From positions 372,001-436,000 of the forward strand of contig KN832872.1 of assembly GCA_000827325.1 (NCBI GenBank): 64,000 nucleotides of DNA, read 5' to 3'. Shown one piece after another: positions 24,974 through 29,236 of the stretch. Under the pieces are notes generated by a model, which was given only the letters and a program-made list of their open reading frames with translations, did not search any database and was not told the origin of the DNA. How positions within the stretch are numbered: the first letter of the stretch is position 1; each line of letters starts with the position of its first letter. The translations under genes and the position numbers were made by a program. This DNA is from Oidiodendron maius Zn (Eukaryota > Ascomycota > Leotiomycetes > Myxotrichaceae).

Positions 24974-24978
24974 AACTT
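24974..24978. repeat. 5-bp target site duplication, left copy
   Basis: AACTT directly flanks the left LTR and recurs at 26762-26766 directly after the right LTR, as expected for an integrase-mediated insertion. Confidence 0.75.
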
Positions 24979-25121
24979 TGTCAGAGATACGGTGCGCAGG
25001 GAAAGATAACCTGGTATTCAGCATAAAAGAGTAGTAAATTACGGTTTGGTTGTAAGCTGCTATAACGCCCAAAGTGGGGTTTTATACAGCGCAATACCAT
25101 TACATAAGCATATCCTTGATA
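24979..25121 (-). repeat. long terminal repeat (3' LTR in element orientation)
   Basis: 143 bp, identical to 26619-26761 except at one position. On the minus strand it contains GTATAAAACCCC, a TATA-like box suited to a U3 promoter. Confidence 0.88.
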
Positions 25122-25130
25122 CTCCCCCTT
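25122..25130 (-). other. polypurine tract of the LTR element
   Basis: AAGGGGGAG on the minus strand, immediately upstream of the 3' LTR. This is the expected position and composition for the plus-strand DNA primer. Confidence 0.7.
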
Positions 25131-25289
25131 GCGCTGTAATCCCTAAAACTCCGAATATCAATTGCCTAGGCCTCATTAACTCCCGTAATAGCCTATATGC
25201 TCAGCAGCTACAGCTACAGCCTGCCTACGTCTCCCCTTTAGGAAGTTCAGCAGCTCTACAGACCTATATGTCTGTATTACGGTACAAGA

Positions 25290-25440
25290 GTACCCTTGGC
25301 ACAGCTCATCTCTCAACAGAGGCTCCCTGTCTAGGGCATACATGTGTTATAGCCACGACACTCTTCTCAATAGAGGCTTCCTCTCTAGGGCATGTATTAT
25401 AGCCATGACGCTCTTCTCTCAACAGAGGACTCTTATAGCT
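25290..25440. repeat. imperfect tandem repeat inside the LTR element
   Basis: A unit of roughly 50-60 bases containing TCAACAGAGGCT, CTAGGGCATA and TTATAGCCA is seen about two and a half times, with small differences between copies. It lies in the non-gag part of the element, where pol would be in a complete copy. Confidence 0.65.
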
Positions 25441-25719
25441 AGTAGAGCTCTATCTCGGAGATTGTCAACTAGCTCAACAGCTAGGGCTCAGCAGCCAGGC
25501 TCAGCAGCCTAAGATAGAGCTCCCTTATCAGAGGTACTACTATACAGAGGTTTAAAGGGAACACTCAGGCTCTGTAGTAGCAAAGTGGCTCACAAGGCCA
25601 GCATATTCAGTACCACGCTCTCTCTCTTTACCCTTGTCTCTGCTCTTGCTTCTTTTAGGCTTATACTCTTGCTCGCTCTCAGACTCACTTTCAGAGCCGC
25701 TGCTTGACTCATTTCGTCT

Positions 25720-26550
25720 CTAGGCTCTTGCTCTAGCCCTCTCGTATTTGCGGCAATCCTTTTGGAAATAGCCTTTCTTGCTGCAGAAATAACAGCTGCT
25801 TTGATCAGGGGGCTTTGATTGACTCCCCCTATCCTTATACTTCCTCTTTTTGTCTGAACTACCTCCCCTCTTGTCTCTTCGGCTATGTCTTGCAAAGGCA
25901 GCAGCCTCAGGAGGAGGTATAGAGGACTCAGTGGGTTTTGCAGGTTTTGTGGTTTCAGGGGTAGTCTCGTATGACTGAAGCAGGGTAATCGTCCCTTCAA
26001 GGTCGTGTTTCTCGCGAATTGCAAAGTGCTTTACCTGCTGCCATAAAGGATCTTTGGCTGGCAGGGCTGCAAGGAGCCATAATATTACATCACGGTCCAT
26101 AAGATTGAAATCTGAGCCGTCAAGTGAGGTCTTATATCCGTAAAGTCAAGAGGAAAAGTCTCTAATTGTCTCGGCCTTTAGATCAAACTCTGCTGTACTA
26201 AACTGCTCTCAGACTGTTGAGTTAAATACAGGGTCATTAGCACGGTTGAACTTAGCTAGCTCTATCCATATTCCTGGCACGTCCTTTGCCTGAATATAGG
26301 GGGTGATCTTAGGCAAGAATCAAGGCTGAATTGATCCGGAAATAATCTGAATAGCCTTCTGATTCCTATCCTTCCACTCTAGGTAGGTTGCCCTAGGTTA
26401 AGCAGGTGGTTCAGGATCAGAGCCATCAACTATATTCCATGCATCGATAACAGCTAGGGCAGCTGTACAGGTACTCTTAAACTCAGGGTAGTTGCCTCCG
26501 TCTAGAATAGCCACCCTCCCCCACTTTGTGGTATTATACTCAGTCGGCAT
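25720..26550 (-). pseudogene. copia-type gag remnant with in-frame stops
   Basis: Starting at MPTEYNTTKWGRVAILDGGN, one continuous frame runs 830 bases with gag-like content (WNIVDG, ATYLEWKDRNQKAIQIISGS, DRDVILWLLAALPAKD) and ends in a zinc knuckle near 25790. It is broken by a TAA at 26398 and three TGA codons before 26140. By context these replace Gln, Arg and two Trp codons, so all four are consistent with C-to-T or G-to-A transitions. The zinc knuckle CYFCSKKGYFQKDC carries Tyr where the canonical CCHC motif has His. No frameshift is needed to follow the frame. Downstream of 25720 the frame is littered with stops. The protein cannot be made intact from this copy. Confidence 0.82.
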
Positions 26551-26606
26551 CGTAAGGATCGTACGGATTGTAATAATCGATAACAAACCCAGGCAGTTAC
26601 AAGCCC

Positions 26607-26618
26607 GGGCTCATAACC
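26607..26618 (-). other. primer binding site, half-tRNA type (initiator Met tRNA)
   Basis: Plus-strand GGGCTCATAACC abuts the 5' LTR exactly. It matches the anticodon stem-loop of initiator methionine tRNA (loop CTCATAA with the CAT anticodon), so the minus-strand template would pair with a tRNA fragment ending in that loop. This is the priming mode known from Drosophila copia and several fungal copia-type elements. Confidence 0.75.
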
Positions 26619-26761
26619 TGTCAGAGATACAGTGCGCAGGGAAAGATAACCTGGTATTCAGCATAAAAGAGTAGTAAATTACGGTTTGGTTGTAAGCTGC
26701 TATAACGCCCAAAGTGGGGTTTTATACAGCGCAATACCATTACATAAGCATATCCTTGATA
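26619..26761 (-). repeat. long terminal repeat (5' LTR in element orientation)
   Basis: 143 bp, the near-identical partner of 24979-25121. Its right end touches the AACTT duplication at 26762-26766. Confidence 0.88.
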
Positions 26762-26766
26762 AACTT
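26762..26766. repeat. 5-bp target site duplication, right copy
   Basis: AACTT, matching 24974-24978. Confidence 0.75.
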
Positions 26767-26881
26767 CACCCAGCCAACGGTAGTCGGATATAATTTTTGG
26801 TTGTTGTCGTCAGTTACATGCTGCGAACAGGACGATTGCTCTAACAGGGAGGCAGCATAGAAGTGCTCCATTCTTCTCGGA

Positions 26882-29236
26882 ATGAAGGCCCAGACACCGC
26901 ACCAGCGGGACACATCCGCGAGACGGTCGTCAGTTAGTAGCGGCAATCGCGTGAGTGTTGGGAGCTATCTGCCTCTCCCACGAGCGCAATCTAGAGTAGG
27001 TCCTTTCCAGTGGTTTGCGAGATCTATATTTGTCCTTCATTCTGACCCATGTATAAAGATTGCTTTGGCGCGTGCTGCGAATACCCAACACGCCTCCGAC
27101 CAGACTGGCGCTGAATCAACAGCTCGACCTCCATCGCGAGGCGCTTTGGGATACTCAGCGCGAGCCACTTCAGGTGAAATACACCGCGACAAGCCTAACA
27201 TTGGCGTTGACTATGATCATGAAAAGCACCGTCGGGAACTGGACGAATTAAGGGCCGAGATCAAAACTCTGAAGTACACCATAGACAATCATAGACAGGA
27301 TGAAGAATTAGCGAAGCTTAGACATGAAAGTGAGGTCCGAGATGCTCGGCGTAAAGCTGAAGACGATTTCAAGAGGATGCAGGCTGCAGAAGCGGAGAGA
27401 TCGAAATTGACTCGCCAAAATGAAGCCTTACTGAAGGACTTATCCGATGTCCGGGATACCGCAAGCAATGAAAAGGTTTCTCTTGAAAGACGACTCCGAG
27501 AAACTGAGGAGAGTCGGAGGGCTTTGGAAGATGAGGTTGAGGATATCAAATCGGAACGAGAAGAGAGCATTCGCAGCATAGAAAGGCGATCAACGGAGCA
27601 CGAATCGCGAGCAGATTCCTTACAACGAACACTAGAGGAGCTGCAGCAAGAATCGGACCGCAAAGATGATTTATTGCATGAAGCGCAGCAACTGCTAACA
27701 GAAAAGAACACTGCATATGGTGCCCTGGAAGGAGAAGTCTTACGCCTGAAAGCACAAACTCGCGACGCGGACACGCTGGGGGTTATTAAACGGGAGCTGA
27801 GTGAACAAGTTACGCATATCAAAAAGTTGGAAGCGGCGAACAGAGAACAGTTCGCGGAATTAAAACACTTCAGGAATCTCCACCAGAGCGTCGAGGTTGT
27901 CGAGGAGGAAAAAAGGTCGTTACAAAGGAAGCTTGATGGTATGGAAAGTCTTGAAAATGAGCTTGGGGAAGCACGGATCCAACGACAGCGACTCGAGGAT
28001 GAAAAATTAGCTTGGACAGCCTATCTCCAAAGCCAAGCTGGCAGCGATGGGCAAGTTGAATTCGATTCTCCAGAAGCTCTGGCTAGAGCACTTATTGAAG
28101 AGCGTCTTAAAAGGGCTGCCTTAGCAGAGAGGCTTGGGTCCCTGGAAGCTGAGCTATCCGAGAAGGATGTCATTATTTCCGGCCTGGAGGGTGAAAATAC
28201 CTCCCTAGCTGAACAGCTAGAATCTTCCAAGACCGCCGAAAGCAGTATGGGCAGTGACAACCAAGCGCTATTGAGGTTAGAAAGGCAGCGTGCACTGGCT
28301 ATCAAAGAGGCTGAGTATCTCCGCGAGCAGCTCAAAGCGTTTGACGCCGAAGATACGACCTTCCAGCCCGAGAATGTGAATGAGGCGAGGCTCAAACGCA
28401 TCCAAGCGCTAGAAGATATGGTGGACCAATATCGACAAGAAGTGCAAACTCTTCAAGGAGAGCTCACATCACGCGAAGCTGGTCATCCAAAGACAGAGAC
28501 GGTCGGTACGAAACGAACCCGAGAGGATACTGAAAATAGTGAACGGCTAGGCCAACTCTCACGTAAATCGCGCAAATTACAAGATGATCTCAGTACCGTC
28601 CAAACCAATTGCAAACTTCTTGAAAAGGAACTTGCGGTTACAAAAGAGCGCCTAACGGCTGCCACAAAACAAAGCAAGACCCGAATCCTGTCCCTCCGCT
28701 CAAATCCTACGTCTGATTTTGAAGCTATCAAGTTGTCCACGCTCAACTCGCTTCGGAAAGAGAACGTTAATCTTCTCGCTCAGCTGCGAAGTGGACAGGC
28801 TAGCGTCGATTCTGTCCCATTGTCTTCCCTTGACGTGGCCCAGCAGGAGGTGAAGCGGATAGAGGAGGCCCTAAAATCCGAAAAGAAGATGAACGACCGT
28901 CTGAAGAAGGTGTGGCATGCCAAGACGCAAGAGTTTCGCGAATTGGTAGTCTCACTACTGGGATGGGACGTGGTTTTCCTATCCAATGGGAAGATGAGAG
29001 TCACAAGCTACTTCTATCCGAGCAAAGGGGACCACGAGAATAGCATCGAATTCGACGGGGACAAAGGGACTATGAAAGTCTCGGGTGGGCCACAGAGCGC
29101 ATTTGCGCAAAAGATCAAGGAGCAGATCAAGTTCTGGGTACATGGTAAGTGCAGTGTTCCCTGCTTCCTCGCCGCACTCACCCTCGAGTTTTACGAAGAA
29201 GCAAATAAGGACGGCACTTTGAGAGTGGAGGTGTAG
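26882..29236 (+). CDS. MAD1: spindle assembly checkpoint protein Mad1
   Basis: An open frame of 784 aa, mostly coiled coil from residue ~115 to ~690 (heptads rich in Glu, Arg, Leu). The Mad2-interaction motif region reads TRILSLRSNPTSDFEAIKLS, and the Bub1-binding RLK motif follows in NDRLKKVWHAKTQEFRELV. The C-terminal globular domain reads SLLGWDVVFLSNGKMRVTS, then GTMKVSGGPQSAFAQKIKEQ and CFLAALTLEFYEEANKD. These are diagnostic for Mad1, which recruits Mad2 to unattached kinetochores and delays anaphase. The N-terminal ~60 residues are less convincing: 26996-27058 has donor GTAGGT, a CTGAC branch-like site and an AAAG end, is 63 bases without a stop, and may be an in-frame intron. The retroelement insertion lies just upstream and may affect the promoter or leader. 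Confidence 0.93.
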   Translation: MKAQTPHQRDTSARRSSVSSGNRVSVGSYLPLPRAQSRVGPFQWFARSIFVLHSDPCIKIALARAANTQHASDQTGAESTARPPSRGALGYSARATSGEIHRDKPNIGVDYDHEKHRRELDELRAEIKTLKYTIDNHRQDEELAKLRHESEVRDARRKAEDDFKRMQAAEAERSKLTRQNEALLKDLSDVRDTASNEKVSLERRLRETEESRRALEDEVEDIKSEREESIRSIERRSTEHESRADSLQRTLEELQQESDRKDDLLHEAQQLLTEKNTAYGALEGEVLRLKAQTRDADTLGVIKRELSEQVTHIKKLEAANREQFAELKHFRNLHQSVEVVEEEKRSLQRKLDGMESLENELGEARIQRQRLEDEKLAWTAYLQSQAGSDGQVEFDSPEALARALIEERLKRAALAERLGSLEAELSEKDVIISGLEGENTSLAEQLESSKTAESSMGSDNQALLRLERQRALAIKEAEYLREQLKAFDAEDTTFQPENVNEARLKRIQALEDMVDQYRQEVQTLQGELTSREAGHPKTETVGTKRTREDTENSERLGQLSRKSRKLQDDLSTVQTNCKLLEKELAVTKERLTAATKQSKTRILSLRSNPTSDFEAIKLSTLNSLRKENVNLLAQLRSGQASVDSVPLSSLDVAQQEVKRIEEALKSEKKMNDRLKKVWHAKTQEFRELVVSLLGWDVVFLSNGKMRVTSYFYPSKGDHENSIEFDGDKGTMKVSGGPQSAFAQKIKEQIKFWVHGKCSVPCFLAALTLEFYEEANKDGTLRVEV

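Follow-up and report, generated by a model that had tools for sequence, protein, structure and literature searches.

A probable gag-only copia-type retrotransposon family in the fungus Oidiodendron maius, and LTRs spared by RIP in its full-length relatives

Terminal-repeat retrotransposons with a GAG domain (TR-GAG elements) have been described in plants (e.g. AT5TE33540, Arabidopsis, ATCOPIA63; excerpt of PMC8704663). According to the same excerpt they carry two LTRs and a single gag ORF, lack pol, and have full-length copia relatives in the same genome, all of which also applies to the family described here. The definition used below draws on that excerpt. Non-autonomous LTR elements are also known in fungi, where they lack pol domains and occur beside complete relatives (PMC3248453; PMC5872316, both in excerpt). 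In these excerpts, however, such elements are incomplete or degraded in general, with no account of a family that has only an open gag; the excerpt of PMC5445492 makes no mention of non-autonomous elements. The TR-GAG literature found concerns plants, judged by titles, and combining the search with fungi returned work on sunflower. Like the present element, crapaud of Podospora is a fungal LTR retrotransposon that bears the marks of repeat-induced point mutation (RIP), and its solo LTRs are reported mostly to escape. The LTRs of full crapaud copies, however, are reported to be RIP targets (PMC10787394), whereas the LTRs of full copies here are much less mutated than the interior.

The window, a stretch of 64,000 nucleotides from O. 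maius Zn (contig KN832872.1, positions 372,001 to 436,000), contains a gag-only copia-type element of 1.78 kb at 24979-26761, with its sense on the minus strand and an interior of 1497 bp of which gag makes up two thirds (Table 1). The 5-bp target duplication is exact on both sides. The initial annotation had described 143-bp LTRs with a single difference, which we confirm; the target duplication, the minus-strand sense of the element and its gag, the primer-binding site and the polypurine tract were absent from it. The first 14 nt of the primer-binding site complement the anticodon arm of an initiator-Met-like tRNA sequence, a match confined to that arm and to a sequence for which ARAGORN gives no call. 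Initiator-Met-like tRNA sequences uncalled by ARAGORN are present at C1:5507705-5507735 (L070) and C6:1037753 (L075), and the latter resembles, by eye, part of an initiator-Met-like tRNA gene. The spacer between gag and the 3' untranslated region (UTR) was found nowhere outside the two gag-only copies in a genome search.

Table 1. Features of the window element, in window coordinates
Feature	Positions	Strand	Basis or remark
Target duplication AACTT, copy 1	24974-24978	.	direct
3' LTR, 143 bp	24979-25121	-	sequence comparison in window and genome
Polypurine tract GCAAGGGGGAG	25122-25132	-	abuts 3' LTR
3' untranslated region	25122-25307	-	common to full-length relatives; predicted branched RNA fold
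Spacer, gag to 3' UTR, ~240 bp	25308-25551	-	degenerate ~29-bp repeats
gag frame, copia type, five premature stops	25552-26550	-	Pfam of sister copy and reading of frames
Primer-binding site	26600-26618	-	directly after 5' LTR
5' LTR, 143 bp	26619-26761	-	one difference from 3' LTR
Target duplication AACTT, copy 2	26762-26766	.	direct

The neighbours of the element are a GWT1 gene on one side and a MAD1-type gene on the other. The 5' LTR lies upstream of the latter (26619-26882 region), reads away from it and ends 120 bp before the first ATG (26882) of the open frame of this checkpoint gene, the promoter of which could possibly be affected by the inserted LTR.

Searches were made in an assembly of 45.9 Mb in 58 contigs, and all match counts are lower bounds. 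At least one further full copy (the sister copy) is present on contig 4 at 740320-742105. It is 96% identical over its full length and has the pol-less layout of the window copy, identical LTRs, the ends TGTCA...TGACA and a primer site with one internal change. It has its own target duplication, TTGAT, and flanks unrelated to those of the window copy. A second full-length copy this similar, at a site with unrelated flanks, means that the window element is not a chance arrangement, and because both full copies are pol-less in the same way, it would be the pol-less form itself that transposed, as a non-autonomous gag-only family. Two insertions of the same structure imply, as far as their sequences can tell, transposition with help in trans. 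The earlier proposal of a non-autonomous family moved in trans is thus borne out by two insertions with different target duplications and the same pol-less structure. A full-length element with matching LTRs, and further copies with the same stops, had been named as findings that would support it; there was no full-length element with the 143-bp LTR among the genome matches, and the sole other gag copy found is free of stops.

At least 13 more places hold LTR sequence of the 143-bp type only (83-97% identity), six of the 13 with exact 5-bp target duplications, and no RVT_2 match occurs within 7 kb of any of them (lists compared by eye). At one place, C1:4521565-4521753 (L059), two inverted LTR pieces of this family overlap by a few bases in a palindromic rearrangement. 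At another LTR-only place, C1:2612161-2612302 (L057), both termini have changed to TA, and the target duplication contains one mismatch by eye.

The sister gag is an open frame of 333 aa that matches Retrotran_gag_2 (PF14223) with an E of 3.5e-14, above the curated cut-off, and through it the window frame is recognisable from its sequence as a copia gag. Five of the six stop-free pieces of the window gag (all except one of 20 aa) were submitted to Pfam, and none reached the cut-off. This frame holds five in-frame stops (3 TGA, 1 TAG, 1 TAA), one more than had been counted previously. The stops had been attributed to C-to-T or G-to-A changes at Gln, Arg, Trp and Trp codons; measured against the sister, every one of the five is a C-to-T change on the coding strand, and none is a G-to-A at a Trp codon. 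The absence of a recognisable pol domain, also reported before, stands: profile searches with RVT_2 and rve gave no match at either gag-only copy, and no protease, integrase, reverse transcriptase or RNase H was seen in either interior in the three frames of the element strand. The gag ends where two full-length relatives (L048 and L049) continue in frame into protease-like sequence. The sister frame stops right after TEPECSL, whereas those of L048 and L049 run past TEPDCSL to a DSG motif downstream of gag, which we take to be protease-like. Against solved structures, the sister Gag matched with no E below 0.12. At the His position of the CCHC zinc knuckle (gag 25741-25801; L002) both gag-only copies have Tyr, and the single relative compared by alignment has His.

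The relatives, nine full-length copia elements (L047-L055) taken out of at least 12 places of their family, are ~5.24 kb long with 248-bp LTRs, and all nine have 5-bp target duplications. They resemble the gag-only element in the primer site, polypurine tract, LTR tip, 185-nt 3' UTR and a homologous gag, and differ from it in size, in LTR length, in a gag that runs on into protease-like sequence (in the two read) and in RVT_2 with stops. The primer site is common to seven of the nine by BLAST and to all nine by eye if up to three changes are allowed; over the first ~23 nt of the LTR, eight match by BLAST; and the polypurine tract GCAAGGGGGAG is identical in eight and has a single change in the ninth. 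The gag of eight relatives shows 27-31% amino acid identity to the sister Gag, with six of these matches spanning residues 4 or 5 to 333 and two ending at 274 or 282. The ninth and most mutated relative gives a weak match (23% identity, E 0.33). Evidence for copia pol in this family consists of RVT_2 and, after gag in the two elements read, the protease-like DSG; the rve model found no match in the full-length relatives. All ten RVT_2 domains assigned to the family carry stops, so that no working helper or intact reverse transcriptase domain was seen among them. Pol must have been supplied in trans, plausibly, judged by shared sequence, by this related family. Elsewhere in the assembly, open copia frames of 1066-1473 aa from other families occur at C47:47741, C2:1085089, C11:1356096 and C13:491448, with rve matches beside them in frames of the same lengths, and to judge by these frames the four elements may still be active.

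By its features, the family is best classed as being of the TR-GAG kind within the copia superfamily, and not as TRIM or LARD. Both copies have LTRs with 5-bp target duplications, and a primer site and polypurine tract are present. A single Gag ORF is found in the sister (333 aa) and is broken by five stops in the window copy; protease, integrase, reverse transcriptase and RNase H are absent from both, and the gag match of the sister to PF14223 (E 3.5e-14) is a Ty1/copia feature. TRIMs are very short LTR elements without coding capacity, and LARDs have long non-coding interiors of over ~4 kb. The present elements share with both classes the LTRs, primer site, polypurine tract and lack of pol, but they have a gag where those classes have non-coding interiors, and their size falls between the two. 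At 1.78 kb, with an open gag in the sister, the element does not suit the TRIM class, and an interior of 1497 bp that is two thirds gag does not suit the LARD class. The initial label of TRIM/LARD-like is therefore replaced, as the family codes for Gag. Compared with the plant TR-GAG elements, the family is fungal and small, with 1.8 kb, 143-bp LTRs and a 333-aa Gag against the 562 aa of AT5TE33540; its full-length relatives have other LTRs (248 bp) and share mainly the termini and the 3' UTR; and both the gag-only and the full-length families show RIP (plant side from the excerpt of PMC8704663).

The 3' UTR is more alike between the two families than gag or the LTRs as a whole. It is 80-83% identical to that of five of the nine relatives over 184 aligned bases, with 17 gap positions uncounted, and the best-matching core is 25166-25307; against five relatives the gag DNA is 51-53% and the LTRs 47-51% identical. 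An alignment of ten of the 11 3' UTRs (all except that of L055) gives a predicted fold of 57 pairs in which 98.9% of cells are paired. Five pairs are changed on both sides, compared with a shuffle mean of 2.7, and 18 of 500 shuffles reach five; slid controls gave 0-1 doubly changed pairs. Pair types are not in excess, as 421 of 500 shuffles have at least as many, and the single-sequence fold is unremarkable (z -1.43). The covariation is suggestive of a conserved fold in the model, from two lineages and with the fold derived from the same alignment. A covariance model of the 3' UTR finds L055, which was outside its training set, as well as L047 and the sister copy, which were both in it, and gave no match in 28 loci, including 24 RVT_2 regions from families other than that of the relatives. 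When the 3' UTR of a relative was searched as DNA, 13 places came up; besides the two gag-only copies and the nine relatives, these are a further place with RVT_2 (contig 35) and a fragment. Rfam returned no match. One explanation of the identity would be a recent swap of 3' ends between the two families, although the LTR body just downstream is not alike. We tentatively suggest that the 3' UTR fold, polypurine tract, LTR tip and primer site might have been kept as recognition signals for helper enzymes or particles while almost everything else diverged, including gag and the LTR body.

Between the window and sister copies there are 61 substitutions (59 transitions) and one 3-bp indel. Polarity was taken as C to T, and an outgroup was compared at LTR sites only, by eye. 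Among the window-type C-to-T differences, 24 of 35 are at CpA and 8 at CpG, in agreement with the RIP-type mutation previously suggested; for the sister-type changes these figures are 13 and 4 of 24. The RIP index was rejected as a discriminator: TpA/ApT is 1.31 in the window element and 1.36 in the sister with its open gag (window 1.5-kb tiles have a mean of 0.77 and a maximum of 1.20), so that damaged and open copies are alike and the index marks the family, not the damage. Within gag, the 18 sister-type changes comprise 10 silent, 8 replacement and no stop changes, with 25% silent expected (P 0.006). The 20 window-type changes (5 silent, 10 replacement, 5 stop) are as expected without constraint. 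Neither the contrast in silent changes between the copies (Fisher P 0.096) nor the missing stops among the sister-type changes (P 0.14) reaches significance. Window-type changes number 5 in the 286 bp of both LTRs, where two sites are identical in both LTRs and could be counted once instead of twice, against 30 in 1497 interior bp. Equal rates in LTRs and interior had been proposed as a refutation of the initial reading, and these counts give no decision on it. All 24 sister-type changes lie in the interior, and the 286 LTR bases of that copy have none.

It had been argued that RIP acting after insertion should mark the LTRs too. This premise fails in the nine relatives, the interiors of which are heavily mutated and the LTRs spared. 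Their interiors differ by 5.5-16.6% (mean 10.1%), and transversions are entirely missing from 10 of 36 pairs, one of which has 577 transitions. By contrast, the two LTRs of an element differ at 2-16 of 248 positions (mean 2.4%). The mutated fraction of CpA is 0.10 in the LTR, rises to 0.17 over the first 250 interior bp and to ~0.4 in the middle, and drops to 0.26 at the far end; by zone, it is 0.10 in the LTRs, 0.25 in the outer 500 bp and 0.42 in the middle. The LTR lies below the middle in all nine (P 0.004). Some of the relatives' changes, including a third of the LTR change, may predate insertion, since 890 of 1193 interior columns with two states (C/T or G/A) show the change in at least two of the nine copies and LTRs differ by 3.6% between elements against 2.4% within them. 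With a third subtracted from the interior too, it would still be nearly three times more mutated than the LTRs. Jumping of a broken template does not explain the interior gradient, and positional sparing does. In the two short gag-only copies the edge gradient has the same direction and is not significant (P 0.15 and 0.06). We found no report in the literature combining an edge effect with RIP and LTRs, and do not claim the effect as unknown; the excerpt of PMC12543289 contains nothing on RIP at repeat ends.

Taken together, the LTRs, 5-bp target duplications, primer site, polypurine tract, gag-length frame and lack of pol in both copies are best explained, and we think this probable, by a gag-only Ty1/copia family that was copied in trans by the related full-length family, with the window copy hit by RIP after insertion. 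RNA of the gag-only element would have been copied and integrated by the reverse transcriptase and integrase of that family, with which it has the primer site, polypurine tract, LTR tip and 3' UTR in common, and the element would supply, or once have supplied, its own Gag. Light RIP after insertion would then have introduced the five gag stops into the window copy and, fading towards the element ends, left near-identical LTRs around a broken interior. A different timing, in which the template already had the stops and moved in trans, its Gag coming from a sister-like copy or from a relative, is possible though rather doubtful. The window LTRs are changed at three sites, and at two of these the change is in both LTRs, favouring a template that carried it; in 11 of the 13 LTR-only places the second of the shared sites has the other base (by eye). 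The single private change and the clean LTRs of the sister point the same way: equal rates in LTRs and interior predict 6.35 private changes in the window copy (P 0.013 for the one seen; P 0.022 for none in the sister). With sparing as in the relatives, however, one private change and none are unremarkable (P 0.48 and 0.35), although the five window LTR hits, if counted apart, are then too many (P 0.03). The relatives keep similar LTR pairs around RIP-mutated interiors, and changes in both LTRs are common in them (27 sites against 53 changed in one only, not polarised), so that the window ratio of 2:1 does not depart from theirs (P 0.28). Stops are absent from the sole other gag copy found, and one of the shared changes alters the LTR terminus from TG to TA. 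Integrase requires an intact terminus, and such an alteration should hamper integration; it therefore speaks for mutation after insertion. Later RIP suffices for the window stops, and the LTR argument of the initial annotation does not establish that the stops preceded insertion.

The family itself would dissolve if the copies were independent deletion remnants of a once complete element. Only two full copies are among those found, as remnants would allow, but they have the same pol-less interior and spacer, 96% identical with a single 3-bp indel, and their insertion sites, target duplications and flanks all differ; we regard this origin as highly improbable. It is also improbable, under either timing, that the family is TRIM- or LARD-like without coding function and that gag is a decaying fossil in both copies. 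The broken window copy and the Tyr in place of the knuckle His in both copies would fit such decay, and the evidence for constraint on gag is modest; against this stand the 333 open codons of the sister frame and the enrichment of its own changes for silent ones.

A gag-only copia family thus appears to exist in a fungal genome that also houses a plausible helper family; the TR-GAG literature found is, by its titles, on plants. The nine related elements mean that LTR identity around a broken interior is no evidence for the jump of a broken template, and LTR dating of such RIP-spared copies is unsafe. The conserved 3' UTR, set against a diverged gag, offers a candidate cis signal for testing and, if the suggestion made above is true, would serve this copia lineage as a signal for packaging or reverse transcription.
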